48,019 nt of DNA. It comes from Candidatus Zixiibacteriota bacterium (GTDB lineage: Bacteria > Zixibacteria > MSB-5A5 > WJJR01 > JAJRUJ01). The position numbers and the translations under genes are program-made. Below the pieces are notes generated by a model. That model did not search any database. It worked only from the letters and a program-made list of their open reading frames with translations, and was not told the DNA's origin. The stretch's first letter is position 1; each line of letters opens with the position of its first letter. The stretch spans positions 1 to 48,019 of the forward strand of contig JAJRUJ010000067.1 in the NCBI GenBank assembly GCA_024277855.1, read 5' to 3'. This document shows, one piece after another, positions 32,292 to 45,495 of the stretch.

Positions 32292-32455
32292 AGTTGATCA
32301 TCTTCCAGAGCAAGCCGATAAAAGTCATCAAATGTATTAACCGAAGTCGGTCGATTCACCCCTCGGCAGGCAACAACGCTATCAACCGGAGACAATCATA
32401 ACTCCAGTTGACACGTAGAGGTTTGGTCATAGATTGCTCTGAGGAGACAATGACA

Positions 32456-33811
32456 ATGCCCAAGGCCGCCCGCGACATTATCTTAGACTCAATTGCCGAT
32501 GGTGTATTCACCGTCGATCGTGAGTGGAAGATTACCATGTTCAACAAGGCCGCTGAAAAAATGACCGGCATCAGCCGTGAGGACGCCATCGGCCGACGGT
32601 GTTGCGATGTTTTTCGGGCCAGCATCTGCGAGACAGAGTGCGCGCTGAATCAAACTCTGCAAACAGGAAAGTCGCTGATCAATCGTGAAATTTATATTCT
32701 CAATGCTGAAGGACAGCGGGTACCGGTAAGTATCTCTACCGCCTTATTGCAGGATGAAAACGGCGTGGTTATCGGTGGAGTGGAAACTTTCCGTGATCTT
32801 TCGGTAATCAAACAATTGCGCAAAGAGCTGAAGGGACATTTCTCCTTCGCTGATATCATCAGTCGCAATCACAAAATGCAGGAACTTTTCAATATTCTCC
32901 CCGGGATTGCCACCTCGCCGAGCACGGTCCTAATCGAGGGAGAGAGCGGGACCGGTAAGGAACTTTTTGCGCGCGCGGTGCACGATTATAGCCCTCGCAA
33001 GTCCAAGCCGTTTATTGTGGTCAACTGCGGTGCGCTACCCGATACGCTTTTGGAATCGGAATTGTTCGGCTACCGCGCGGGCGCGTTCACCGATGCCAAA
33101 AAAGACAAACCCGGCCGCCTGGCCCTTGCCGAAGGGGGAACGATATTCTTGGATGAAATCGGCGATATCTCCCCGGCGATGCAAGTGCGCTTGTTACGAG
33201 TCTTGCAGGACCGGACCTACGAACCGCTCGGCGCGACTGAAACAATTACCGCCGACGTCCGGGTGGTAACAGCCACCAACAAAGACCTTAGTCAATTGGT
33301 GAAGGACGGCAAATTCCGCAGTGATTTGTATTATCGGATCAATGTCGTCCGCTTGTATCTTCCCCCGCTTCGCGAACGCAAGGAAGATATTCCGCTTTTA
33401 GTGGAGAACTTTGTCTCGCGATTCAATCGACTGATGAGCAAAAATATCAGCGGTGTCTCTCAACAAGTCATGGCTGTGTTGGCGGCGCATGATTTTCCCG
33501 GTAACATCCGGGAACTGGAAAACATTATTGAACATGCCTTCGTACTTTGCCCCGGCGGGGTGATCGAATTACGCCATCTACCGGATATGTTTGCCAAAGC
33601 AGGCGGAACAATTACCGAAACGGCGGCCTCGGTCACATCGCTCGAACAGATGGAACGAATTTTCATCGTCGATGCCTTAAAACGCAATAACTGGAACCGA
33701 CTGGCGGCGGCTCGGGAATTAGGTATTCACAAAAGCACCCTCTTCCGCAAAATCAAGAGATTGGTAATCGAATTGCCGCCACAAGATGGTCGGATGTCGG
33801 GCGGGGTATAG
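32456..33811 (+). CDS. sigma-54-dependent transcriptional activator with PAS sensor (ORP-regulator-like)
   Basis: 451 residues from ATG 32456 (GAGGAG about nine bases ahead; ATG 32450 is in frame but too close to it). Domains: PAS sensor ~8-118; AAA+ ATPase ~130-365 with Walker A GESGTGKE (162-169), the sigma-54 contact loop GAFTDA (209-214) instead of GAFTGA, and Walker B GGTIFLDEIGD; Fis-type helix-turn-helix at the C-terminus (RLAAARELGIHKSTLFRKIK). The PAS part has four clustered Cys (RRCCDVF and ASICETEC), a possible metal, Fe-S or redox sensor. There is no receiver domain. It is followed by a -24/-12 promoter and palindromes, so it very likely activates the cluster to its right. It ends in tandem TAG TAG. 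Confidence 0.92.
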   Translation: MPKAARDIILDSIADGVFTVDREWKITMFNKAAEKMTGISREDAIGRRCCDVFRASICETECALNQTLQTGKSLINREIYILNAEGQRVPVSISTALLQDENGVVIGGVETFRDLSVIKQLRKELKGHFSFADIISRNHKMQELFNILPGIATSPSTVLIEGESGTGKELFARAVHDYSPRKSKPFIVVNCGALPDTLLESELFGYRAGAFTDAKKDKPGRLALAEGGTIFLDEIGDISPAMQVRLLRVLQDRTYEPLGATETITADVRVVTATNKDLSQLVKDGKFRSDLYYRINVVRLYLPPLRERKEDIPLLVENFVSRFNRLMSKNISGVSQQVMAVLAAHDFPGNIRELENIIEHAFVLCPGGVIELRHLPDMFAKAGGTITETAASVTSLEQMERIFIVDALKRNNWNRLAAARELGIHKSTLFRKIKRLVIELPPQDGRMSGGV

Positions 33812-33840
33812 TAGCATAGCGCAACCCTCGACCAACTTAA

Positions 33841-33861
33841 TGGGTCGCATAATGCGACCCA
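33841..33861. promoter_or_regulatory. perfect palindrome, probable activator-binding site (UAS)
   Basis: Two 10-base arms, TGGGTCGCAT and ATGCGACCCA, around a single central A: a perfect inverted repeat 21 bases long. Its centre (33851) is ~107 bases ahead of the -24 GG, a typical distance for enhancer sites of sigma-54 activators. One-base loop and no T-run argue against a terminator of the regulator gene. The bound protein is inferred to be the PAS/AAA+/Fis activator encoded just upstream. Confidence 0.75.
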
Positions 33862-33945
33862 CTTGCCCACTATCAGATTCCTTCGATATCATATATGTCA
33901 TCGTAACCCCCTATTTATTAGCGGATTACGGCGTAGTGACATGAT

Positions 33946-33960
33946 GTCGCAAAATGCGGC
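33946..33960. promoter_or_regulatory. second, imperfect copy of the palindrome core overlapping the -24 element
   Basis: GTCGCAAAATGCGGC matches the palindrome core GTCGCATAATGCGAC (33844-33858) at 13 of 15 positions. Its last bases are also the -24 GG of the sigma-54 promoter. If the activator binds here it would compete with RNA polymerase, giving repression or autocontrol at high occupancy. The similarity is seen; function is inference. Confidence 0.5.
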
Positions 33961-33971
33961 ACACCCCTTGC
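33958..33971 (+). promoter_or_regulatory. sigma-54 (-24/-12) promoter of the ORP-like cluster
   Basis: GGCACACCCCTTGC fits the consensus TGGCAC-N5-TTGC: GG at 33958-33959 and GC at 33970-33971 with exactly ten bases between, preceded by C instead of T. The start site would fall near 33983, fifteen bases ahead of the first NifX-like gene, leaving its ribosome site inside the leader. Confidence 0.85.
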
Positions 33972-33997
33972 TTTCAAAAGCAAAAGAGGTGGGAGAA

Positions 33998-34450
33998 ATG
34001 AAAATTGCGATACCTATCTGGCAGGGGCGAATATCACCGGTAATGGATGCCGCGGCACGCGTGTTGGCCGTCGAGTATGATGGCACTTGTGAGGTCTCGC
34101 GGATCGAGGAATCTTTAGGTGATGAGTTCATCCCCCAACGAGCCAGGCATCTCGCGGATTTGGGCGTAAATGTGTTGATCTGCGGTGGCATTTCCCAACC
34201 GTTGTTGACCCTTATTGCCGCACAAGGTATCACCGTAATCCCGTGGATCACCGGGCCGGCCGAGCAAATATTGGAGGCCTACCGTAATAATCGCCTAAGC
34301 CATCCAAAATTCATGATGCCGGGATATGGCAGATGCAGACGAGGGCAAGGCCGTGGTTACGGACAAGGTTGTCGGCAACGAATGGGGCCGGGCCACAGAC
34401 AGGGACGAAAAAGAAAAGAAATAAATCAAGATGGGGAGATTCTTTCATGA
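33998..34450 (+). CDS. NifX/MTH1175-like metal-cluster-binding protein with Gly/Arg-rich tail
   Basis: 150 residues from ATG 33998 (GTGGGAG ahead). Residues ~1-105 form the dinitrogenase Fe-Mo cofactor-binding fold: MKIAIPIWQGRISPVMDAAA, VLAVEYDGTCEVSRIEES, LADLGVNVLICGGISQPLLT, WITGPAEQILEAY. Family members bind or carry Fe-Mo or Mo-Cu clusters. The usual 'V..HFG' is replaced by ISPVMDAA. The last ~40 residues are Gly/Arg-rich (GRCRRGQGRGYGQGCRQRMG), a tail also common in these clusters. It is the first gene after the sigma-54 promoter and overlaps the next gene by four bases. Most likely an orange-protein (ORP)-related component. Confidence 0.85.
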   Translation: MKIAIPIWQGRISPVMDAAARVLAVEYDGTCEVSRIEESLGDEFIPQRARHLADLGVNVLICGGISQPLLTLIAAQGITVIPWITGPAEQILEAYRNNRLSHPKFMMPGYGRCRRGQGRGYGQGCRQRMGPGHRQGRKRKEINQDGEILS

Positions 34451-34809
34451 AAATCGCGATTACCGCCCAACAGGATAATATGGATAGTCCCGTTGATCCA
34501 CGTTTTGGCCGGGCGCGCTGGTTTGTTGTCTGTGATACCGAAACAGGCGAGTATACGGCCGGCAGCAACGAGCAAAATCTGAATGCGGCCCAGGGCGCGG
34601 GGATTCAGGCCGCGCAAAATGTCGCCCGTTTGGGAGTGGAAGCGGTCATTACCGGTCATGTCGGCCCAAAAGCATTTGCCACCCTCCAGGCGGCCAGGAT
34701 CAAAATCTTCACCGGTATATCCGGTACAGTTAAAGAGGCCGTCGGCGAATTTCAGGCAAAAAAATTGCAGGCCACCGATAAAGCGGACGTTGAGGGACAC
34801 TGGGTGTAA
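34447..34809 (+). CDS. NifX/MTH1175-like protein, candidate orange-protein (ORP) homologue
   Basis: 120 residues from ATG 34447, overlapping the preceding gene (ATGA), with GGGGAG ahead. It is nearly the whole MTH1175-type domain: MKIAITAQQDNMDSPVDPRF, GRARWFVVCDTETGEY, AAQNVARLGVEAVITGHVGP, KAFATLQAARIKIFTGISGT. The 'DSPVDPRFGRA' loop and 'ITGHVGPKAF' are hallmarks of the subfamily that includes the Desulfovibrio orange protein, which holds a Mo-Cu-S cluster. Cluster binding in ORP is non-covalent or weak, so ligands cannot be picked here. Shared promoter and neighbours support the same system; identity as true ORP is inference. Confidence 0.85.
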   Translation: MKIAITAQQDNMDSPVDPRFGRARWFVVCDTETGEYTAGSNEQNLNAAQGAGIQAAQNVARLGVEAVITGHVGPKAFATLQAARIKIFTGISGTVKEAVGEFQAKKLQATDKADVEGHWV

Positions 34810-34812
34810 ATT

Positions 34813-35700
34813 ATGAATACTGTTGTTGAATGTTTGCCCTGTTTTGTCCGGCAGTCATGGGACACAATCTGCTTGTGTACCGACGACTCTGCCCGGCGTG
34901 AACAAGCAATGCGCCAGATCCTGCAATTGGTGGGCGAGATGGACTTTCGTGTATCGCCCCCGGCCATGGCACAAAAAATCCATCGGTTGATCAGGGGCAT
35001 TTGCGACCAGGCCGACCCTTACCTTTCCGTCAAAAAGCATTTTAATGATCTGACGATGAAGTTATCCCCTACCCTGCAACATTGGGTCAAAAACGCGGCT
35101 GATCCATTTGCTACGGCTGTGCGGCTGGCAATTGCCGGGAACATTATCGATGTTGGCCCCCAACCGGATTTAAGCGATAAACATATCATTGACTCCATCC
35201 GAGAAACGGCAGACAAGACTATTGATCGAGATGCGATCCAGACTCTTCGTCGAGCGGCGGCGAAAGCCGAGCAGATTCTTTACCTGGCCGATAATGCCGG
35301 TGAAATAGTCTTCGACCGGGTTCTAATAGAACAAATAGGACCGGAGAAAATCACGGTGGTGGTAAAGGCCGCCCCGATCCTGAATGATGCCACGCTTGAA
35401 GACGCCGAGATCACCGGCCTGACAAAAATAGTCCGGGTTATTGATAATGGGAGCGACGCCCCGGGCACGATCCTGGAAGATGCCCCGTCTGCTTTTCGGA
35501 AAAGATTTTTTGATGCTGATTTGATTATTGCCAAAGGCCAGGGGAATTATGAAACCCTGGACGATACCCATCGCCCGATTTTCTTTTTGCTCCAGGCCAA
35601 ATGCCCGGTGGTCGCCGCACGCCTCGGCTGCGATGTCGGAGCTGCGGTGGTGCACTACTCGAATCTGAAGATCGCGGCAAAACCAGTCGAAAGGGTGTGA
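34813..35700 (+). CDS. DUF89/ARMT1-like domain protein (AF1104-type)
   Basis: 295 residues. It starts MNTVVECLPCFVRQSWDTIC with the Cys-x-x-Cys pair at residues 7 and 10 that marks the prokaryotic members of the DUF89 family. The catalytic core shows ILYLADNAGEIVFDRVLIEQ and DLIIAKGQGNYETL, which carry the Asp, Asn and Gly-rich residues that bind a divalent metal in family structures; known relatives act as metal-dependent phosphatases. It lies three bases past the NifX-like gene, so it belongs to the same transcription unit. The link to metal-cluster proteins is recurrent in anaerobes but its substrate is unknown. Whether it acts on a phosphorylated or damaged metabolite here cannot be told. 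Confidence 0.8.
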   Translation: MNTVVECLPCFVRQSWDTICLCTDDSARREQAMRQILQLVGEMDFRVSPPAMAQKIHRLIRGICDQADPYLSVKKHFNDLTMKLSPTLQHWVKNAADPFATAVRLAIAGNIIDVGPQPDLSDKHIIDSIRETADKTIDRDAIQTLRRAAAKAEQILYLADNAGEIVFDRVLIEQIGPEKITVVVKAAPILNDATLEDAEITGLTKIVRVIDNGSDAPGTILEDAPSAFRKRFFDADLIIAKGQGNYETLDDTHRPIFFLLQAKCPVVAARLGCDVGAAVVHYSNLKIAAKPVERV

Positions 35701-35707
35701 GCCAGTT

Positions 35708-36013
35708 ATGGGAGATGCGCAGCAAACCAGAGGACCGGGCGGAGGCAGACGTTTTCGATTCCGCCGGGCTTTCTCCGGCAAGGGTGGCCGGCGGGCTGGA
35801 TTGGCTTCGTTATTTATTCCCCTGGCCGGATACGTCGTTCAAGATCTCCGTAAACCTGACAGCACGGTCAAAGCCCTGGCCCAACGCGCCTACGCATATT
35901 TCACCCGGCCGAAAACCGATCGTCGGCAGGCGATCAATCCGGCGGGACGCGTCGAAATAATTGGAACCAAGACAAAGGGGCAAATCCCAAAACTGGATGA
36001 AGATCAGGATTAA
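35708..36013 (+). CDS. small basic hypothetical protein
   Basis: 101 residues, no family recognised. The N-terminus is Gly/Arg-rich (RGPGGGRRFRFRRAF), then a hydrophobic stretch with LASLFIPLAGYVVQDL (residues ~32-47) that could be one membrane or amphipathic helix, then a basic region and an acidic end (LDEDQD). It starts seven bases after the DUF89 gene and ends ~20 bases before the next gene, fitting an operon member. The ribosome site is poor, so translation may rely on coupling. The Gly/Arg-rich opening echoes its neighbours. A real gene is likely but not certain. Confidence 0.55.
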   Translation: MGDAQQTRGPGGGRRFRFRRAFSGKGGRRAGLASLFIPLAGYVVQDLRKPDSTVKALAQRAYAYFTRPKTDRRQAINPAGRVEIIGTKTKGQIPKLDEDQD

Positions 36014-36032
36014 TGAAGAAAGGAGATATATC

Positions 36033-36395
36033 ATGCCAAGAGGAGACAGAACTGGACCGTACGGCGCCGGACCGATGACCGGCCGCGGGGCCGGGCACTG
36101 TGCCGGCTACTCCACGCCGGGTTACATAAATCCCGTTGGAGGCAGGTTCGGCCGTGGTTTCGGTGGTGGACGCGGTTATCGCCACCGGCGCTATACCGCC
36201 GGGGTACCTGGGTGGGGATATGACAACTGGGCCATGGAGACGGCAAGACCCTACAGGCATACTCACAGGGCGCCGGTCATGCCTGATTAGTTGCAAATGT
36301 TGAAAAGCCAGGCGAAATACTTTGAAGACGCGCTGGCAGACATTAAACAACGCATGCGGGAATTGGAATCTTCCCCGGCGACGGAGGAGAAGTAG
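36033..36395 (+). pseudogene. DUF5320-like Gly-rich protein interrupted by in-frame amber
   Basis: From ATG 36033 (AAAGGAG eight bases ahead) the protein begins MPRGDRTGPYGAGPMTGRGA and continues GHCAGYSTPGYINP, then a Gly/Arg/Tyr stretch, GVPGWGYDNW and RAPVMPD before a TAG at 36288-36290 (codon 86). The same frame continues for 34 codons, LQMLKSQAKYFEDALADIKQ and on to RMRELESS, ending at TAG 36393. That continuation is exactly the coiled-coil 'LK.QA.YLE..L..I..RI.ELE' tail that DUF5320 proteins normally carry, so the gene was once, or still is, one 120-codon unit. A GAG-to-TAG change would explain it. The function of DUF5320 is unknown; it commonly accompanies NifX-like and MinD-like genes in anaerobes. 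Confidence 0.75.
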
Positions 36396-36434
36396 GCAAG
36401 TGTTGCGGGCGTGAGACAGATATGTTCGTGATGA

Positions 36435-36602
36435 GTGATAGCTCACGATGTGCGCCGATATCTGCTCGGTCGGCGCAATGACATCAAAGACGGCTATCCT
36501 GAGGTCGGGGAGAAACATATTGCCGGTGGCTGGTATGCGCAACAGTGTCCCAATAAAGTAATCACCCTGGTTGCAGGAAAAAGAATAATGCAGGAGGTTT
36601 AA
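36435..36602 (+). CDS. possible small protein, 55 aa
   Basis: A short frame from GTG 36435, just after tandem TGA TGA, to TAA 36600, one base before the next gene. It reads GRRNDIKDGYPEVGEKHIAG in its middle and ends in LVAGKRIMQEV. Composition is protein-like, but there is no good ribosome site and no known relative, and the last bases double as the next gene's ribosome site. A remnant or chance frame is equally possible. Confidence 0.25.
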   Translation: MIAHDVRRYLLGRRNDIKDGYPEVGEKHIAGGWYAQQCPNKVITLVAGKRIMQEV

Positions 36603-36603
36603 A

Positions 36604-36831
36604 ATGCCCAGAGGAGATGGTACAGGCCCAGCCGGACAGGGTCCGGGGGCTGGTCGCGGTCGTGGGATGGGGCAGGGTACCGGCCGTGGCCGGCGGGGAG
36701 GATTTGGCGCAGGAGCGGGCGGGGAATGCGTTTGCCCCCAATGTGGAAAAACACTTCCTCACGGACGCGGCACTCCCTGCATCCAGGTCAAATGTCCGGA
36801 TTGCGGTACGCAAATGACCCGAAAGATGTAA
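36604..36831 (+). CDS. small Gly-rich zinc-ribbon protein
   Basis: 75 residues from ATG 36604, with a strong GGAGG seven bases ahead. It starts MPRGDGTGPAGQGPGAGRGR, the same MPRGD-x-TGP opening as the DUF5320-like protein, has a Gly/Arg-rich linker and ends in a rubredoxin-like zinc ribbon: CVCPQCGKTLPHGRGTPC then QVKCPDCGTQMTRKM, with Cys-x-x-Cys pairs at ~45/48 and ~65/68. Such proteins are widespread beside NifX-like and ferredoxin-ATPase genes in anaerobes. The Cys pairs should bind zinc or iron. Its exact task is unknown; a scaffold or metal-delivery role is inference. Confidence 0.8.
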   Translation: MPRGDGTGPAGQGPGAGRGRGMGQGTGRGRRGGFGAGAGGECVCPQCGKTLPHGRGTPCIQVKCPDCGTQMTRKM

Positions 36832-37116
36832 GCAGGGGTATCATCAGGCCTTATAACGGCATTCAGTAAAGCGCGAAAGGCGACTTTACCGGACGGTAGG
36901 AAAACGACGGAACCGGGGTCACCGAATATGTGGAGGATTAAAGTTGTTGAATTCATCTGAAATACACTGCAAACAGTCAACCCGGCGGGGTTCAGTGAAG
37001 GCCTCCGCCATACGTTGCCCCGTCGGTAAGACTCTGCAGAAGATGGCTATTCAGCCGACTCCGAATAGACCCCGGTTCCCTTTTAATCCGACCGTTGCTG
37101 AAAGAAACGGGCAATC
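36832..37116 (+). other. intergenic region before the first ATPase gene
   Basis: 285 bases with no supported gene and no clear promoter, sigma-54 site or terminator. The longer frames on either strand read as non-coding. It may separate two transcripts or simply be spacer. Confidence 0.4.
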
Positions 37117-37974
37117 ATGAAACTCGCAGTGGCCAGCGGAAAAGGTGGGACGGGAAAGACGACGATAGCAGTCAGTCTGGCCCTGGCTCTGGCCGGGCAG
37201 GGAAAAGTGGTGACATATGCTGACTGCGACGTTGAAGAACCAAATGGTCATATCTTCCTCAACCCGCAGGTCGAGCAGAAAAAAGTGGTGACTGTGCCGG
37301 TACCGCAGGTCGAGCAGGAATTATGTACATTCTGTGGTGAGTGCGCTGAAATCTGCCAGTTCGGCGCGATCGCGTCATTGCCGGAAACAACGCTGGTCTA
37401 TTCAGATTTATGTCATAGCTGCGGTGGATGTAAATTGGTTTGCCCGACCGGCGCAATCACCGAGATCGGACGTGAAGTCGGGTATGTGGAAATCGGTTCG
37501 GCGAAGAATGTCAGGTATGTCGCCGGCCGACTGCGTATCGGTGAGGTCCAATCCCCACCCTTGATCTGTGAAGTCAAGAACCACCTTGACCGGCAGGGTA
37601 TCAACATAATCGATGCCCCGCCGGGAACATCCTGCCCGGTCATCGAAGCGGTCAAGGATACCGATTACGTGCTGCTGATTACGGAACCGACTCCGTTCGG
37701 GTTCAACGATCTTAAGCTCGCCATTGGTATGCTGGACATCCTGCAATTGCCGTTTGGGGTAGTGATCAACCGGGCGGATATCGGCAATGATGAGGTCAAG
37801 CGATACTGTGCGATGGAAAACATTGAGGTATTGCTCGAAATCCCCGACGACCGGCGGATTGCGGAAGCATATTCGCGGGGAATTGCGGCAGTGACCGCAT
37901 CACCCGAGTTGACCGGGAAGTTTGTCCAATTATTCAAGACCATTACCCGGCCCAGAGAAAAACAATTGCGGTGA
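37117..37974 (+). CDS. MinD/Mrp-like P-loop ATPase with 2x[4Fe-4S] ferredoxin insert (ORP-complex type), first copy
   Basis: 285 residues. It opens MKLAVASGKGGTGKTTIAVS with the deviant Walker A (KGGTGKT) of the MinD/SIMIBI class, followed by YADCDVEEPNG. A ferredoxin domain is inserted at ~65-115 with two cluster motifs: Cys 70, 73, 76, 80 (CTFCGECAEIC) and Cys 99, 102, 105, 109 (CHSCGGCKLVC). The ATPase fold resumes with IIDAPPGTSCPVIEAV (switch) and VLLITEPTPFGFNDL. Two such proteins occur with the Desulfovibrio orange protein, in a complex linked to cell division. Cytoplasmic; likely binds or passes Fe-S or Mo-Cu clusters in an ATP-dependent way (inference). The second copy starts four bases after. 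Confidence 0.9.
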   Translation: MKLAVASGKGGTGKTTIAVSLALALAGQGKVVTYADCDVEEPNGHIFLNPQVEQKKVVTVPVPQVEQELCTFCGECAEICQFGAIASLPETTLVYSDLCHSCGGCKLVCPTGAITEIGREVGYVEIGSAKNVRYVAGRLRIGEVQSPPLICEVKNHLDRQGINIIDAPPGTSCPVIEAVKDTDYVLLITEPTPFGFNDLKLAIGMLDILQLPFGVVINRADIGNDEVKRYCAMENIEVLLEIPDDRRIAEAYSRGIAAVTASPELTGKFVQLFKTITRPREKQLR

Positions 37975-37978
37975 ATAA

Positions 37979-38869
37979 ATGAAAGAATTGGTAGTCATCA
38001 GCGGCAAAGGCGGGACGGGTAAAACCAGCATTGTGGCCTCATTCGCCGCCCTCAGTAAAAACGCGGTGTTGGCTGACTGCGATGTCGACGCCGCCGATTT
38101 ACACTTGGTGTTGGAACCAAAGATTCGGCAGGAAGAGGAGTTCAAAGGGGGCAAGAAAGCTAAAATTATTTCCGCGGCCTGCACCGGCTGTGGTAAATGC
38201 GAAGAGGTCTGTCGCTTTAATGCGGTATTACGAGATGGTCCACCGAATTATCTGGTACCGGAAACGTTTCTCATCGATCCCCTTGCGTGCGAAGGGTGCG
38301 GAGTCTGCGCGCATTTCTGTGAAGACAAAGCGATCAAGTTTAGAGAGGTCGTTGACGGAGAATTATTTATTTCGGATACCAGGTGTGGGCCGATGGTTCA
38401 TGCCCGATTAAATGTCGGTGGAGAGAACTCGGGCAAACTGGTCACTCGCGTGCGGACCGTTGCCCGCGAATTGGCCGAAAGCAACGGCCGCGATTTATTA
38501 ATCGTCGACGGGTCGCCGGGGATCGGTTGTCCGGTAATCGCGTCGGTCACTGGCGCTGATTTAGTCCTCGTGGTCACTGAACCGACCCGTTCGGGGATGC
38601 ATGACCTCGAACGCGTTGTAAAATTAACCGGTTTTATGAAGATACCAACGGTTGTTTGTATCAATAAGTGGGATATCAATCCGGAAATCACCGCACAAAT
38701 TGAAAAATTGGCTGACCAGTCGGGTGTACACCAGGTAGGAAAGATCGGTTACGACAAAAGAGTGACCGCCGCGCAATTGATGAAAAGTAGTGTGGTGGAA
38801 TATACCGGCGGTTCAATTGCCCAGGAAATCAATGCACTGTGGCGAAATGTGGTTTATGAATTGGCGTGA
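37979..38869 (+). CDS. MinD/Mrp-like P-loop ATPase with 2x[4Fe-4S] ferredoxin insert, second copy
   Basis: 296 residues, a diverged paralogue of the preceding gene and probably its partner. Walker A is VISGKGGTGKTSIVASFAAL; LADCDVDAADLHLVL follows. The ferredoxin insert has Cys 68, 71, 74, 78 (CTGCGKCEEVC) and Cys 104, 107, 110, 114 (CEGCGVCAHFC), and VDGSPGIGCPVIASVTGADL and VVTEPTRSGMHDLERV complete the ATPase core. Here the helix following Walker A ends in NAV rather than the usual long loop, so the N-terminal part is slightly compact. Pairing of two such ATPases matches DVU2103/DVU2104-type genes in Desulfovibrio. Heterodimer formation is inference. Confidence 0.9.
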   Translation: MKELVVISGKGGTGKTSIVASFAALSKNAVLADCDVDAADLHLVLEPKIRQEEEFKGGKKAKIISAACTGCGKCEEVCRFNAVLRDGPPNYLVPETFLIDPLACEGCGVCAHFCEDKAIKFREVVDGELFISDTRCGPMVHARLNVGGENSGKLVTRVRTVARELAESNGRDLLIVDGSPGIGCPVIASVTGADLVLVVTEPTRSGMHDLERVVKLTGFMKIPTVVCINKWDINPEITAQIEKLADQSGVHQVGKIGYDKRVTAAQLMKSSVVEYTGGSIAQEINALWRNVVYELA

Positions 38870-38994
38870 TTAACCCACGGTCACCCCAAACAAATAAGCC
38901 GTCTCGCATATCCTCGATTAATATCCAAGACCGTCGGGAATAGCAAAACGCAACATTGAACAGATGGAACCATACTTTAAAGGAGTTGTCAGGT

Positions 38995-39333
38995 ATGAAA
39001 ATCGCCATTCCGGTAGCCGGTGGGCAGCTTTGCCCGCATTTCGGACATTGTGAACAATTTGCGCTCTACGATGTGGATCCCGAGACGAAAAATGTGCTGA
39101 AAACAGAATTCCATACACCGCCGCCGCACGAACCGGGTGTCCTCCCCCGCTGGTTGTCCGAGATGGGAGCCACCACAATTATCGCCGGAGGAATGGGCGC
39201 GCGTGCCCAGCAACTTTTCGTGCAAAATAATGTACAGGTCGTCATTGGCGCCGGCGGAGGTGATCCGCAGGCCGTCGTCGAGGCCTTCCTTGCCGATACG
39301 TTATCCACCGGGGATAACCTGTGTGACCATTGA
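38995..39333 (+). CDS. NifX/MTH1175-like protein, third copy
   Basis: 112 residues from ATG 38995 (AAAGGAG is 11 bases ahead). MKIAIPVAGGQLCPHFGHCE is the classic start with the 'HFGHCE' loop of the family, then FALYDVDPETKNVL, GVLPRWLSEMGATTIIAGGM, GARAQQLFVQNNVQVVIGAG and VEAFLADTL. The Cys-Pro-His-Phe-Gly-His-Cys segment offers metal ligands absent from the other two copies, so this one may be the metal-carrying or nitrogenase-accessory-like member. It lies 125 bases past the second ATPase. Closest general match: the widespread 'dinitrogenase iron-molybdenum cofactor biosynthesis' family in non-fixing anaerobes. Confidence 0.88.
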   Translation: MKIAIPVAGGQLCPHFGHCEQFALYDVDPETKNVLKTEFHTPPPHEPGVLPRWLSEMGATTIIAGGMGARAQQLFVQNNVQVVIGAGGGDPQAVVEAFLADTLSTGDNLCDH

Positions 39334-39673
39334 AAAAAACTGGAATATCCAAAAGCGGCACGAGGGTCTCATCGTGATTGTATGGTTTGTGCGGCGAATG
39401 ATCCCTTTGCCCCGGGATCACGATTTCAGCTCGGTAGGCCTCCGTTGCTGACCCCCATCGCCGCCCGGCCGCGCAGCCATCAACGCCACGGTCGATGCAG
39501 TCATGAAATAGTGTTGCCCCGTTGTTCAGACCATGGAAACGGAATGATCATGACGTTCATTTGCAATATTTTTTCACCTGACAATCCGGAAACCGGCGCT
39601 ATTTCCATTTGTGGCGGTAACCGGGGTTTTGGCTGAAACTCTCGAAGCATCGAATCAGTACGGAGGAAATACG
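39334..39673 (+). other. intergenic region
   Basis: 340 bases between the third NifX-like gene and the next gene. Open frames here are short, Pro/Arg-rich and unlike real proteins. I see no clear promoter, terminator hairpin or repeat. Confidence 0.4.
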
Positions 39674-40180
39674 GTGGTTAAGCTACCGGTCGGAGTGCAA
39701 TTGGCTGAGATTCCGCTCGAACGTAAGTATCGCAGCGCCGTTGCCGGATTGACGGCGCGAATCAAAGCATTGTACGACGCGATTTATGATCGGTTTGGGC
39801 CGGACGGTCTTGAGCTTATTGAAGAAGTCTCATCGAAATACGGCCGCGAGATTGCTCTTCGCGCCGGTAACCGGGTAAAACGCAACGACGTCAAATCCAT
39901 GGCCACGTTTCTTCTCTATATTTTCGAGTTGGTAAGTTATGCGTCGGGATTGGAAGTTACCGAGTTTTCCGATGATCGTGTGGTGATCAGGGTCGATCAA
40001 TGCCCCTACCCGCTTGACCGGCCGGAAATCTGCCGGGCGCATACCGCGATGGAGGTAAATCTGGTACATTCGCTTTGCCCCGAGCTGGATTACCGGATCA
40101 GCAGTTGCATACCTGCCGGTGATGCCTGCTGCGAGCATGTTGTGTGCAAAAATGTCGACCCGCTGAAATCAAAGATCTGA
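39674..40180 (+). CDS. cysteine-rich protein resembling L-2-amino-thiazoline-4-carboxylate hydrolase (ATC hydrolase-like) family
   Basis: 168 residues from GTG 39674, chosen because GGAGG lies seven bases ahead; the frame is open to 39611 but without a ribosome site. The N-terminal half is helical (KYRSAVAGLTARIKALYDAI). The C-terminal half has the conserved Cys pattern CPYPLDRPEICRAH, a helix, then DYRISSCIPAGDACCEHVVC. This layout, Cys-Pro, E-x-Cys and 'GD.CCE', occurs in the ATC hydrolase-like/DUF6125 and related heme or metallo-sensor families (V4R-like). Enzyme activity is not shown; a metal- or small-molecule-binding role is equally likely. It ends the ORP-like cluster, with unclear membership. 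Confidence 0.6.
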   Translation: MVKLPVGVQLAEIPLERKYRSAVAGLTARIKALYDAIYDRFGPDGLELIEEVSSKYGREIALRAGNRVKRNDVKSMATFLLYIFELVSYASGLEVTEFSDDRVVIRVDQCPYPLDRPEICRAHTAMEVNLVHSLCPELDYRISSCIPAGDACCEHVVCKNVDPLKSKI

Positions 40181-40753: not shown

Positions 40754-40861
40754 TCAATCCCGTTTCCTTATCAATTCCATTAGTTGCACGGCAGGTTTGT
40801 TCCAATAGTGTCATCGACCTGTCGTTGTTCGCATGATAGATATTTCAGGGAGGAGTTCAAT

Positions 40862-42283
40862 ATGCGGCTGAAAATTATGTCTCTCTTAATCTGGCTAATC
40901 GCCTTGTTAATGCTCGCACCGCCAAGCAGAGCAGAGCAAGAGATGGTTGATAGTGGAGAGTTGCAGACGCTAAAAGATCAGTTGCAGGAGGCCATGCAGC
41001 GGATCGGCGAAATTGAGACAGAACACGCGGCACAGATCGCGGCGCTGAATGAAAAAATCCAACAGTTAGAACCGGGCCGGCCCCCAGACACTACCGCTGA
41101 TGAAAAAGCGCAGGCAGGGGATGATCTGGAAGCTTTGCGCCATGCCGCCGCCGCGGAAGCCGACAAGAAAACATCCACGGAGAAACCGCTCGAAGAAACC
41201 ACCTTTGAATCCGGCAACCTCGGTCTCCAGGCGATGAACCCGGAGATCAGTGTTACCGGAGACATGCTTGAATTTTACCGCGAGGGTGATGACGTGCAGA
41301 CATCTTCGGATGTGGTGTTCCGCGGCATGGGTCTTCACTTTGAAGCATACCTTGACCCGTACTCGCGGTTCAAAGCGGCGGTTCCCATCAATGAAAACGG
41401 AGCGGAACTCGGTGAGGTTTACTTCACGCGATACGGGATCCTGCCAAACACCAATATTACCCTGGGTAAATTCCGCCAGCAATTCGGTGTTGTCAACCGG
41501 TGGCATAAACATGCGCTCGATTGGTTTGATTTTCCCCTGGCGCTTCGGATGGTGTTCGGCCCGGGGGGCTTGAACCAAACCGGGCTTTCTCTCGGTTGGA
41601 ATGGCGCGACCGGCCCGGTGACACACGAACTAATTTTTCAAGCGACCGACGGTGACAACGGTCAGATACTGGGGCAGAATGCAAAGAACCGGCCCAGCCT
41701 GTTGACGCACTATAAGATTTATAAGGACCTCAGCCCCAGCACATACGTGGAGCTGGGCGGCACCGGTTTGGTGGGCTGGAACAACGAGTGGCCGACAACA
41801 GACGGCACAATCAACCAAACACTTACCGCATATGTTTACGGACTCGACTTCGCGATTGCCTGGGAACCCCTCGACCGGATGAGGTATCGGAACATTGAAT
41901 TCCGCACCGAAGCATATTTTGTCGATAAGGAAATCCAGGCGCCGGACAATTCGGGGACTGACCGGCTCAATCCCTGGGGCTTTTACAGTTCGCTGCTGGC
42001 CAAAGTAGGACGGACGATCGACATTAACCTGCGTTTCGACTATTACCGCCCGGAAGTGAAATCGTATGGGGATGATCCGGGTATGCCGCTGTCTCCGACA
42101 GTCACGACAGCGGATGCGTACCGGCAACAAGCGGGAGTCAACCTGACATGGTTTCAAAGTCCATTTGTTAAGTTTAGAGCGGGCTATGCCTATGCCAGCG
42201 GGCGAGGCACGGGAGCCGCTGAAAACATCGTAAGGCTGCAAATGGTATTTGCGGCCGGCCCACACAAGCACGAACGTTATTAG
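40862..42283 (+). CDS. outer membrane porin of the metal-import operon
   Basis: 473 residues from ATG 40862, with GGGAGGAG about nine bases ahead. Signal peptide at 1-24 (IMSLLIWLIALLMLAPPSRA), a coiled-coil at ~30-75 (LQTLKDQLQEAMQRIGEIET) as in porins that anchor to the cell wall or trimerise, a low-complexity linker, then a beta-barrel: VTGDMLEFYREG, GMGLHFEAYLDPYSRFKAAV, FGVVNRWHKHALDW, IEFRTEAYFVDKEI, and it ends in aromatic ERY. It resembles phosphate-selective-porin-like/zinc-regulated porins. It stands 19 bases before the substrate-binding protein, so it probably lets the metal cross the outer membrane. It ends in TAG. Confidence 0.82.
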   Translation: MRLKIMSLLIWLIALLMLAPPSRAEQEMVDSGELQTLKDQLQEAMQRIGEIETEHAAQIAALNEKIQQLEPGRPPDTTADEKAQAGDDLEALRHAAAAEADKKTSTEKPLEETTFESGNLGLQAMNPEISVTGDMLEFYREGDDVQTSSDVVFRGMGLHFEAYLDPYSRFKAAVPINENGAELGEVYFTRYGILPNTNITLGKFRQQFGVVNRWHKHALDWFDFPLALRMVFGPGGLNQTGLSLGWNGATGPVTHELIFQATDGDNGQILGQNAKNRPSLLTHYKIYKDLSPSTYVELGGTGLVGWNNEWPTTDGTINQTLTAYVYGLDFAIAWEPLDRMRYRNIEFRTEAYFVDKEIQAPDNSGTDRLNPWGFYSSLLAKVGRTIDINLRFDYYRPEVKSYGDDPGMPLSPTVTTADAYRQQAGVNLTWFQSPFVKFRAGYAYASGRGTGAAENIVRLQMVFAAGPHKHERY

Positions 42284-42302
42284 TCGCCGAGGAGAAATTG
42301 TA

Positions 42303-43382
42303 ATGAAAGCAACTTCGCTGTTTATCGCTATAGTACTTCTGGCGCTGGCGGTCACTGTGTCGGCGTCGGATACCCCCCGCTTGAATGTGGTGACCACACT
42401 TCCGGACTATGCCTACTTTGCGCGGCGGATCGGCGGTGATCGGGTTACCGTCCAGGCAATCGTTCACGGCAACCAGGATGCGCACTTTATTCGGCCAAAG
42501 CCCTCGTTTGTCAACATGGTCCGGAATGCGGATGTCCTCATCTCAACCGGACTCGACCTGGAGTTATGGCTGCCAACCATCGTCAATAAAAGCGGTAACA
42601 CTCATGTCCGCAGCGGCGAAGCGGGCTATGTCGCCGCCTCGCACGGGATGACATTACTTGAGAAACCCAAAGTGCTCTCCCGTTCCGAAGGCGGAGTGCA
42701 TATCTACGGTAATCCGCATATGAACTCCAGCCCGATCAAAATGAAGATTGCCGCCCAGAACATCGCAATCGGGCTGATTAAAAACGACCCCGAGGGTAAA
42801 GACTTCTATAATACAAATCTGAAAACACTCCTCGACGAATTCGACAATCGCCTGTTCGGCAATGAGCTTGTCCGCCTTCTCGGCGGCGAGACCCTTTGTA
42901 AACTTGCCGAAAAAGGAACACTGATTTCGTTTCTCCAAGAACACGAGTATGGCGGCAAACCGATGATCGAATACCTCGGCGGTTGGCTGGCCGGAATGAT
43001 GCCGCTTCGCGGAACGCGGATTGTTACCTACCACAAGAACTGGGTGTATTTCGAGCGCATCTTCGGGATCGAGGAGGCCGGAACGGTCGAACCGAAGCCG
43101 GGTATTCCCCCATCGGCGAAACACGTCAATGAACTTGTCGACAAAATGCGGACGGAAAAAATTCCGATCATTCTGGCGGCAAATTATTTCGACGAACAGA
43201 AAATTCGCACCGTGGCGGAACGCGTCGATGCGGAACCGGTTATCGTCCCACTCTATGTCGGCGGAGGGGAAAATGTCGATACGTACTTCCAGTTGGTCGA
43301 CCTCTGGGTCGACCGGCTGTTGAACGCCGCGGAGAAAAAAGGTCTGCTGAAGATTAGTTCCTTATCAGGATGGTCGAAATGA
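42303..43382 (+). CDS. metal ABC transporter substrate-binding protein (ZnuA/TroA family)
   Basis: 359 residues from ATG 42303 (GGAGAAATTGTA ahead). Signal peptide at 1-22 (LLALAVTVSA). Cluster A-1/ZnuA features: VVTTLPDYAYFARRIGGDRV, then the first metal His in GNQDAHFIRPKPS, the second in HIYGNPHMNSSP, TYHKNWVYFERIFGI (third His), and the acidic ligand in the region of AANYFDEQ. There is no long His-rich loop of the kind seen in ZnuA of enterics; the spacing fits Zn or Mn. The 'GNQDAHFI' form with Ala before His is typical of delta-proteobacterial and FCB members. It binds metal in the periplasm for the two permeases. Confidence 0.9.
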   Translation: MKATSLFIAIVLLALAVTVSASDTPRLNVVTTLPDYAYFARRIGGDRVTVQAIVHGNQDAHFIRPKPSFVNMVRNADVLISTGLDLELWLPTIVNKSGNTHVRSGEAGYVAASHGMTLLEKPKVLSRSEGGVHIYGNPHMNSSPIKMKIAAQNIAIGLIKNDPEGKDFYNTNLKTLLDEFDNRLFGNELVRLLGGETLCKLAEKGTLISFLQEHEYGGKPMIEYLGGWLAGMMPLRGTRIVTYHKNWVYFERIFGIEEAGTVEPKPGIPPSAKHVNELVDKMRTEKIPIILAANYFDEQKIRTVAERVDAEPVIVPLYVGGGENVDTYFQLVDLWVDRLLNAAEKKGLLKISSLSGWSK

Positions 43383-44218
43383 GCGAGGTGTGGAGTTTCT
43401 TCTTGGTCCAGATTGCGCTGATCGCGGTGGTGCTGATTCTTCACACCTACATGGGGCTTCACGTCATCCGGCGGACAATTATCTTTTGCGACCTCGTACT
43501 GGCCCAACTCGCCGCGTTTGGGGCATTGGTTGGCATCGCTTTTGGTATTCATTATGCCACCAGTGGTTCCTATATCCTGCCCCTGCTCACAGTTCTGGTG
43601 GGTTCCTACTTACTGGCCACAATCGACCCGCGATCGCCGCTGATCCCGCGTGAGGCCGTAATCGGAATCATGTTTGCCATGTCTCTGGTCGCTACACTGC
43701 TCCTCGGCGACAAACTTTCCGGCGGCGATGCCTACGTAACAAAGACACTGGCCGGTTCGATGCTCTGGGTCAACTGGCCGCTCGTCGCAATTACCGCCGC
43801 GGTCTACATCGTGCTCCTGCTCTTTCATTACCGGTTCCGGCACAAATTCATCGCCCTTACCGAAAATCCGGAATCACTGCGGCATCGGCGTTACTGGGAT
43901 TTTCTCTTTTTTGCGACCCAGGGTATCATCGCGGTCCTGATTGTCCCGATTGCCGGCGTACTGCTGGCTTACGCGTTCCTGATGATCCCAGCGTCAATCG
44001 CCGCCATGTTTTCCAAAGGGTGGCTTCGCGCCATCATCATCGGGTGGAGTGTCGGTTTTGCGGCCTGCATATTTGGGCTGATATTGTCTTACAATGCAGA
44101 CCTGCCTTACGGCCCGACTCTCGTGCTGGCGTTGGGTATATGTTTCCTGGGGGCGGTGGCGATCAAGTCGTTGAAGCCCGCATTGGCTCGCGGCTGGTTG
44201 AAGGGGGGAACACGATGA
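43379..44218 (+). CDS. metal ABC transporter permease (ZnuB family), first copy
   Basis: About 279 residues from ATG 43379 (overlapping the preceding TGA as ATGA; an in-frame ATG at 43370 is also possible). An integral membrane protein with ~8 helices: LVQIALIAVVLILHTYMGLH, IFCDLVLAQLAAFGALVGIA, LPLLTVLVGSYLLAT, LAGSMLWVNWPLVAITAAVY, GIIAVLIVPIAGVLLAYAFL. It has the family's 'FCDLVLAQLAAFGA' and 'AYAFLMIPASIAAMF' segments, the latter in the cytoplasmic loop that meets the ATPase. Overlaps the next permease by four bases. In ZnuABC systems the ATPase is usually beside it; none is present here. Confidence 0.88.
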   Translation: MSEVWSFFLVQIALIAVVLILHTYMGLHVIRRTIIFCDLVLAQLAAFGALVGIAFGIHYATSGSYILPLLTVLVGSYLLATIDPRSPLIPREAVIGIMFAMSLVATLLLGDKLSGGDAYVTKTLAGSMLWVNWPLVAITAAVYIVLLLFHYRFRHKFIALTENPESLRHRRYWDFLFFATQGIIAVLIVPIAGVLLAYAFLMIPASIAAMFSKGWLRAIIIGWSVGFAACIFGLILSYNADLPYGPTLVLALGICFLGAVAIKSLKPALARGWLKGGTR

Positions 44219-45495
44219 GCACGATATCCCTGTTAGGCCTGCCCTTTCTTGTGGCGCTGGAAATGATTGCCATCCTTGGGTACGTAGGAATTCATGTGCT
44301 CAAACGTGAGATTATTTTTGTCGACATCGCCTTGGCGCAGGTTGCCGCAGTGGGGGCCATTGTGGCTCACCTCGCTTTCGAAGTGCATGGAGATTCGGTG
44401 ACCGGCTATTCATTCGCCTTTGGTGCGACTCTCCTTGCCGCTGGTTTCTATTCATTTGTTCGGCGGCAGACTATCCGGATTCCGTTGGAAGCGGTCATCG
44501 GTGTCACGTATGCCGTTGCCGCCGCACTGGCACTTTTTCTTGTGGGCGTCGCGCCGGGTGGACATGTTCATATCCATCAGATGCTCGCCGGCAGCATTCT
44601 GTGGACGACGCCGAAAGACGTAATTTTGTGTGGGGGAGTATTTGCGGCAACCGGCTTGTGTTTCTACCTGTTCCGGAAACCGCTGGCCGGGATATCGGAT
44701 GATTACGAAGGGGCGGTCCGAAAAGGTACCAACACCATTGCCTGGGATTTTGTTTTCTACACCCTGGTGGGGATTATCATTACATTGGCCGTTCGCATCG
44801 CCGGGGTAGTCATTGTGTTTACTTTTCTCATTATTCCCGCGACGCTGTCGGCAATCTTCGCCAAAAGCTGGGGAATGCGGCTGGTCATCGCATGGATTAC
44901 CGGTGGAACAGCAACTGGCTTGGGCCTGCTTTTTGCCAACGCGTTCGATTTCTCCGTCGGGCCGGCTATCGCCCTTTTCCTGGGCCTGGCCCTGGTGCTT
45001 ACCGCTTTGTTGCGGCAGATCCGAATAACAAAAACCATAACTGCGGTTATTTCCTTCGCGGTGGCAGGGGTACTCTTCGTCTGGTTCTTGTCTTTGTCCG
45101 GGTCTTCCGGCCCGCCGGCCCTGAGTTCTCAAAGTACTCCGGAGCATTCACCAGTCCCTGTTGTCCGGCATGAGGCCGGGGCTGAGGGTCTGGAAAAGTT
45201 TGATCCGAGCCAAATCTCTGTTGTTACCGATCCCGGCAAGCTGAAACAGATCTTCGACGGTTCGAACGATATGGAGGTTCGTACAGCTGTGGTCAGTCGT
45301 TTTCTCGAGATCGATCCGCCAGGGGGGATTCGCCTTGCCCTCGAGTTTTTGAAAACGGACCCTCCGCTCCTCTTTCGACAGGGGGTGATCAATAAGCTAC
45401 AAGACGTATCCGGGTTAGCGAGCGACTACAATATCGAGGAGCCGTTCAACTCGCCTGACAACCAGCGGGCAATCGCGGCGATGTCCAGGCAGTAA
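44215..45495 (+). CDS. metal ABC transporter permease (ZnuB family), second copy, with C-terminal extension
   Basis: 426 residues from ATG 44215, overlapping the first permease stop. Residues ~1-285 are a ZnuB-type permease (LEMIAILGYVGIHVLKREII, VDIALAQVAAVGAIVAHLAF, MLAGSILWTTPKDVI, VVIVFTFLIIPATLSAIFAK). After another hydrophobic segment (TAVISFAVAGVLFVWFLSL, ~280-300) comes a ~125-residue hydrophilic tail: low-complexity SSGPPALSSQSTPEHSPVPV, then helical DPSQISVVTDPGKLKQIF, MEVRTAVVSRFLEIDPP, IRLALEFLKTDPP, resembling HEAT-like helices. The tail should face the periplasm or cytoplasm depending on the helix count. Two different permeases suggest a heterodimeric transporter. The tail's role is unknown. 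Confidence 0.85.
   Translation: MSTISLLGLPFLVALEMIAILGYVGIHVLKREIIFVDIALAQVAAVGAIVAHLAFEVHGDSVTGYSFAFGATLLAAGFYSFVRRQTIRIPLEAVIGVTYAVAAALALFLVGVAPGGHVHIHQMLAGSILWTTPKDVILCGGVFAATGLCFYLFRKPLAGISDDYEGAVRKGTNTIAWDFVFYTLVGIIITLAVRIAGVVIVFTFLIIPATLSAIFAKSWGMRLVIAWITGGTATGLGLLFANAFDFSVGPAIALFLGLALVLTALLRQIRITKTITAVISFAVAGVLFVWFLSLSGSSGPPALSSQSTPEHSPVPVVRHEAGAEGLEKFDPSQISVVTDPGKLKQIFDGSNDMEVRTAVVSRFLEIDPPGGIRLALEFLKTDPPLLFRQGVINKLQDVSGLASDYNIEEPFNSPDNQRAIAAMSRQ

Follow-up and report, generated by a model that had tools for sequence, protein, structure and literature searches.

Little is understood of how strict anaerobes handle iron-sulfur (Fe-S) and mixed-metal clusters, and work on the orange protein (ORP) system has been confined almost entirely to Desulfovibrio. 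The orp operons of D. vulgaris and D. gigas encode ORP (Orp8), MinD-ferredoxin ATPases of the Orp3 and Orp4 type, and a cognate sigma-54 activator with palindromic sites (PMC3897727, PMC6345978). A further protein, MrpORP (Orp9), binds Fe-S clusters and passes them to the Orp3-Orp4-Orp8 complex (PMC6345978). IssA of Pyrococcus furiosus, a thioferrate store, belongs to the same domain family and has a cationic Gly-rich tail proposed to bind thioferrate, and the IssX proteins form a non-thermophilic clade with high isoelectric points and Gly-rich tails (PMC5524996). The window analysed here, a stretch of 48,019 nucleotides from contig JAJRUJ010000067.1 of a Candidatus Zixiibacteriota bacterium, carries a related locus at 32450-39333. 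From its sequence, this locus is probably an ORP-type operon for receiving inorganic metal-sulfide units, storing them and passing them on anaerobically. The units would most likely be Fe-S in the main, and the ORP subunit may also take Mo/Cu.

The genes form one co-oriented operon, all on the + strand, in the order PAS/sigma-54 activator, NifX-like A (NifX-A), ORP homologue (NifX-B), DUF89, small basic open reading frame, DUF5320, zinc ribbon, MinD1, MinD2 and NifX-like C (NifX-C). The parts named in a first-pass annotation of this DNA (activator, -24/-12 element, three PF02579 proteins, DUF89, DUF5320, zinc ribbon and two MinD-like ATPases) are all found on this strand by Pfam and by reading of the sequence, and a small basic protein at 35708-36013, which that annotation missed, joins them. 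The features are as follows.

32450-33811, + strand: sigma-54-dependent activator with PAS, AAA+ and Fis-type helix-turn-helix domains (Pfam PF00158, 1.6e-68; PAS_9; HTH_8)
33811-33825, no strand: putative activator site 1, GTAGC-ATAGC-GCAAC, beginning at the activator stop codon (sequence reading)
33841-33861, no strand: putative activator site 2, perfect palindrome TGGGTCGCAT-A-ATGCGACCCA, its centre about 33 bp from site 1
33957-33972, + strand: sigma-54 -24/-12 element cGGCACaccccTTGCt, with core GGCACACCCCTTGC at 33958-33971 (sequence reading)
33998-34450, + strand: NifX-A, IssX-like, a Nitro_FeMo-Co domain followed by a cationic Gly/Arg C-terminal tail (PF02579, 3.2e-7)
34447-34809, + strand: ORP (Orp8) homologue, NifX-B (PF02579, 4e-24)
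34813-35700, + strand: DUF89/ARMT1-like damage-control-type phosphatase (PF01937, 2.4e-68, model 1-311 of 311)
35708-36013, + strand: ORFX, small basic protein of an unnamed family, with an Arg-rich start and one hydrophobic segment
36033-36290, + strand: DUF5320 protein, Gly/Arg-rich N-terminal part (PF17253, 1.4e-16)
36288-36396, + strand: in-frame TAG (36288-36290), then the DUF5320 C-terminal coding stretch (family model 1-99 of 99 through the TAG)
36604-36831, + strand: small zinc-ribbon protein, with the DUF5320-like N-terminal motif at its start
37117-37974, + strand: MinD1 (Orp3-type), deviant Walker A ATPase with two [4Fe-4S] motifs (Pfam MinD-like, two Fer4 matches)
37979-38869, + strand: MinD2 (Orp4-type), deviant Walker A ATPase with two [4Fe-4S] motifs (Pfam MinD-like, two Fer4 matches)
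38989-39333, + strand: NifX-C, stand-alone Di-Nase domain of MrpORP type (CPHFGHCE...CDH; PF02579, 3e-21)

The ORP system itself is already known; what is new is a DUF89 gene built into the operon and recurring in bacteria and archaea of many phyla. A fusion of NifX-A with the zinc ribbon and a shared palindrome are further small additions. With profile models made from the window proteins, the MinD pair is found together with its neighbours in 36 loci of the window's taxonomic class, in 72 of the 80 named loci and in 15 of the 18 from Desulfovibrionales. The class set is anchored on matches to DUF5320, DUF89 or PF02579; the named set consists of the 80 top-scoring matches to MinD2 of the window type in a scan of a genome collection, and percentages drawn from it should not be read as population rates. 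Among the named loci are some from Planctomycetota, Thermodesulfobacteriota, Bacillota, Chloroflexota, Omnitrophota, Spirochaetota and Acidobacteriota, and some from archaea. This recurrence across the three sets places the arrangement beyond chance. Its presence outside Desulfovibrio, which the first-pass annotation put forward, is in itself no surprise for a system found in many phyla and in archaea, and called anaerobe-specific in a title cited in PMC6345978. The comparison defines a conserved core, consisting of the activator, three NifX-type proteins, DUF5320, the zinc ribbon and the MinD pair, together with its regulatory code.

The relation to the ORP system proposed in the first-pass annotation is borne out by comparison with the sequence of the D. 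gigas ORP structure and with the D. gigas orp locus, taken from the one genome, in a search centred on a Desulfohalobiaceae genome, that matches the D. gigas ORP sequence at 100%. Among PDB entries, NifX-B matches 2WFB (D. gigas ORP) at 1.1e-20, TM1290 (1RDU) at 9e-16 and MTH1175 at 1.3e-12. In a NifX tree of 90 rows, all B-type proteins and D. gigas ORP form one clade (support 100/92), with MTH1175, TM1290, TM1816 and PH0822 outside it. The MTH1175 label first given to the 34447-34809 product is therefore replaced, ORP being the nearer relative by score and by tree. Against the frame that encodes ORP in the D. gigas locus, NifX-B has 49% identity. In the same tree NifX-A falls in a separate clade (100/99) with proteins in the same operon position, and NifX-C lies within a group of 20 rows (97/97), groups that the short NifX alignment resolves without resolving the finer branching.

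NifX-C matches the NCBIfam MrpORP model at 4.5e-38 over positions 265-365 of 365, corresponding to the C-terminal Di-Nase domain of that protein with its CPHFGHCE and CDH motifs (PMC6345978); the matches of NifX-A and NifX-B to this model are weak. It is 54% identical to the same domain in the longer frame of locus L185 and 59% identical to its counterpart in L187. Another NifX tree, whose rows do not include the window ORP homologue, brings the longer-frame proteins of L185 and L189 into the group of NifX-C type and sets the D. gigas NifX protein encoded after MinD2, at the end of its locus, in a different, long-branched clade. The last gene of the operon is of another type than this D. gigas gene, which was the sequence compared for the Orp5-type [2Fe-2S] component of the ORP system. 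NifX-A shares with IssA and IssX, as far as the published description allows the likeness to be drawn, the globular domain and a positive Gly-rich tail (PMC5524996). The tail carries a net charge of +8, equal to the family median, and contains 24% Gly; NifX-C tails are slightly acidic (median charge -2).

A strict Mo-Cu ORP complex, in which the ORP homologue would carry S2MoS2CuS2MoS2 and act in Mo/Cu homeostasis or delivery, would also suit the grouping of this homologue with D. gigas ORP, which binds Mo-Cu, and moaA and moeA are present upstream in the window. This appears unlikely, since sequence does not reveal metal content, the reaction demonstrated for MrpORP is Fe-S transfer (PMC6345978), and the two molybdenum cofactor genes are ordinary and stand at least 5 kb away, beyond EF-G and an unrelated membrane protein.

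The MinD pair corresponds one-to-one to that of D. gigas, with 45% identity for MinD1 and 46% for MinD2, compared with 29-31% to the opposite paralogue (29% for MinD1 against D. gigas MinD2). Across 126 MinD1 sequences the eight ferredoxin cysteines are kept in 97-100% and C173 in 100%; in 138 MinD2 sequences the eight ferredoxin cysteines and C184 are conserved. C173 and C184 lie seven residues past the Asp of a Dx(P/S)PGxxC segment. In NifH, the cluster ligand Cys132 is placed seven residues past Asp125. The predicted model of MinD2 has a mean confidence score (pLDDT) of 94, and its nearest solved folds are MinD and NifH, with close scores. A MinD fold would also suit a cell-division or positioning system, with the MinD pair placing the complex at a pole or septum and the NifX proteins sensing it, and a link between ORP and Z-ring positioning has been proposed, with MrpORP seen at one pole (PMC4672049, PMC6345978). 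That reading is improbable: the division link is a hypothesis in its source, and the sixteen conserved ferredoxin cysteines over the MinD pair, along with proteins of NifX/IssX type, point to cluster chemistry.

Gene order supports assignment to the ORP type. In the D. gigas locus a Gly/Arg-rich open reading frame is followed by a DUF134-like domain with ORP, then MinD1, MinD2 and NifX, and the succession ORP-MinD1-MinD2-NifX is common to the window. Four Desulfovibrionales loci (L182, L183, L187 and L190) have the order activator, NifX-A, (DUF5320), ORP, MinD1, MinD2 and NifX, which is that of the window without DUF89. Compared with the D. vulgaris and D. gigas operons, the window adds DUF89, the cationic-tailed NifX-A, DUF5320, the zinc ribbon and ORFX, and forms a single co-directional operon instead of two divergent operons, orp1 and orp2. 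The co-directional arrangement is also seen in many other loci; divergence belongs to the D. vulgaris arrangement and not to the protein set. As the operon has the Di-Nase domain of MrpORP and not the two-domain protein, the locus is named ORP-type and is not regarded as an exact counterpart of the complex in D. vulgaris. At L173 (8856-9632), the D. gigas locus, the DUF134-like domain and ORP are read in a single open frame uninterrupted by a stop, and ORP lies within comparable long frames in many Desulfovibrionales. As the solved ORP has 120 residues, an internal start or processing may exist in such a frame.

The regulatory region is conserved along with the proteins. The activator is 53-58% identical to activators from orp-type loci of Desulfovibrionales, and its PAS cysteines C51, C60 and C64 are kept in 98-100% of 49-50 operon-linked activators. 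The same three cysteines also occur in related activators not adjoining NifX-A, and therefore mark a PAS subtype. The -24/-12 element stands about 27 bases 5' of the NifX-A start, which is placed at 33998 and not at the TTG at 33863. A match to this element lies no more than 220 bases downstream of the activator gene in 42 of 51 activator-NifX-A loci, against a mean of 1.8 and a maximum of 7 in shuffles that keep single-base composition only. Shuffles of the same kind give 0.7 (maximum 4) for the palindrome GTNGC-N2..9-GCNAC, found after the activator gene in 19 of the 51 loci; site 1 of the window falls outside the stretch scanned for this enrichment. In the operon of the nearest relative (L043, 7292-8618), the PAS region of the activator is broken over several frames, reflecting a frameshift or an assembly error.

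DUF5320 and the zinc ribbon had been listed with DUF89 as components added to the classic set, and only DUF89 retains that standing. DUF5320 is present in 34 of 36 class, 37 of 72 named and 4 of 15 Desulfovibrionales operons, and the zinc ribbon in 33, 27 and 1 of these, respectively; their frequency across the sets makes them ordinary parts of the general system. The zinc-ribbon protein shares 66% identity over 74 residues with the protein of locus L089, and two Desulfovibrionales loci, L187 and L182, encode the zinc ribbon as a fusion with the NifX-A tail, which ties it to NifX-A. ORFX has no NCBIfam match and is conserved in 17 of the 36 class operons.

DUF89, by comparison, recurs as a true addition. 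It lies in or near the operon in the window and six further class operons and in 13 of the 72 named operons, from many phyla, and is found in none of the 15 Desulfovibrionales operons. The gene-neighbourhood statistics that the first-pass annotation had proposed bring out a strong association with DUF5320 in two separate clades, by Fisher tests that ignore shared ancestry. Among class genomes, 23 carry both genes, 7 and 23 carry one only and 80 carry neither (odds ratio 11, p = 9e-8); among 161 genomes of the order of L089, Sedimentisphaerales, DUF89 occurs in 86, DUF5320 in 87 and both in 77 (odds ratio 56, p = 5e-24). Within this order, the DUF89 gene lies no more than 6 kb from the DUF5320 gene in 51 of the 86 DUF89-bearing genomes. 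All 18 regions picked there as linked show DUF89 beside DUF5320, zinc-ribbon, NifX or MinD genes, with gaps mostly of tens of bases, and both regions picked as unlinked are without system genes beside DUF89. The gap between NifX-B and DUF89 is 4 bases in the window, in L043 and in L089, and embedded DUF89 genes take one of two positions, between NifX-B and DUF5320 or after MinD2. In the DUF89 tree, linked and unlinked genes are interleaved and at least five changes of state are required; the link has therefore been gained or lost repeatedly, and a single origin is ruled out.

The window DUF89 resembles the AF1104/PH1575-type phosphatases in its full-length match and its conserved acidic/Asn motifs (DNAGE at 160, NDATLEDA at 191 and AKGQGNYE at 240), and matches the AF1104 structure 2FFJ at 6e-44. 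It differs from them in its setting within an ORP-type operon and in its score against the NCBIfam model damage_ctl_Phtase (2.5e-52), where 178 bits fall under the 440-bit equivalog cut-off. C7, C10 and C264 are invariant across 63 aligned sequences. At position 224, the window has Ala where 92% of aligned DUF89 proteins have Cys; with the three invariant residues, Cys224 would complete a group of four cysteines that may form a site for a metal or an Fe-S cluster. These features allow two readings, a clean-up phosphatase for an ATP-driven cycle or a cluster-bearing partner acting through its cysteines. We tentatively suggest that the AF1104-type DUF89 could be a dedicated accessory of an anaerobic machine for metal-sulfide storage and ATP-dependent delivery in bacteria and archaea. 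Its target would then be either something that the MinD1/MinD2-ORP cycle produces or, via the invariant cysteines, the clusters. In the literature searched, which gives partial coverage and leaves priority uncertain, no association of DUF89 with an ORP-type operon was found. A widespread orphan phosphatase family is in this way tied to the core by statistics from two separate clades, offering concrete partners and substrates for DUF89 biochemistry. That DUF89 is a housekeeping passenger with no functional tie to the operon, as the majority of operons without it and the interleaving in its tree might suggest, is very improbable given the strong co-occurrence with DUF5320 in both clades and the repeated tight embedding at two different operon positions. 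Nitrogenase cofactor assembly of the NifX/NifB kind is ruled out, as the genome has no match to the NifDK/NifEN family (PF00148).

The reading of the locus as an operon for metal-sulfide receipt, storage and transfer is favoured, at the level of homology and conservation, by the gene-by-gene correspondence in sequence and order with orp loci, the ORP clade, the MrpORP match, the IssX-like NifX-A, the conserved promoter and palindromes, the conserved cysteines and the embedded DUF89. Storage and transfer of Fe-S units are inferred by analogy with MrpORP and IssA. Several observations weigh against this reading. The classic ORP complex has been tied to cell division and not to storage. The NifX-A tail has about 46 residues and few aromatics, whereas that of IssA has 70 residues with 14 aromatics. 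In contrast to MrpORP, no Mrp/NBP35 domain is fused to NifX-C, and the Mrp NTPase match of the genome lies on another contig and is without a Di-Nase domain. DUF89 is absent from most operons and is therefore not essential to the core reaction. Finally, the DUF5320 gene carries a TAG at 36288-36290, past which the family model runs in frame to about 36365.

In the proposed mechanism, the PAS activator would sense redox or Fe-S/sulfide status, probably via its three invariant cysteines, bind the tandem palindromes predicted 3' of its own gene and fire the sigma-54 promoter. NifX-A, together with the small Gly/Arg-rich DUF5320 and the zinc ribbon, may then hold anionic metal-sulfide oligomers by cationic chains, as proposed for IssA. 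Discrete clusters would be held by the ORP homologue and NifX-C, as suggested by ORP and MrpORP. MinD1 and MinD2 are envisaged as an ATP-gated heterodimer, in which four [4Fe-4S] clusters and a switch-II cysteine spaced as in NifH could drive cluster reduction or transfer, an activity to which the motifs point. DUF89, placed here by its operon membership, may act as a metal-dependent phosphatase, clearing a phosphoester or nucleotide by-product of the ATP-driven cycle or guarding the metal centres.

Nearly all listed DUF5320 relatives are open at the position of the window TAG, which may represent a sequencing error, a pseudogene or readthrough. A fourth NifX-like gene of the genome (G000:C20:9743-9997, locus L003) lies in a 256-residue open frame away from the operon. 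The gene after NifX-C, described in the first-pass annotation as a Cys-rich member of the system, is present, and its membership is ruled out: it is not a conserved neighbour of the system, and its homologues in four relatives, L006, L195, L196 and L197, are not beside the operon.

39611-40180, + strand: ATC-hydrolase-like gene (weak match to L-2-amino-thiazoline-4-carboxylate hydrolase, 26.2 bits against a cut-off of 28.1)

In L194, a homologue of this gene is followed directly by a further PAS/sigma-54 activator and by a NifX-like gene that belongs to a different subtype and has a long C-terminus. Further downstream in the window, at 40784-45495, a porin-like protein, a ZnuA-like metal-binding protein and a probable ABC permease likely form a Zn/Mn uptake locus.

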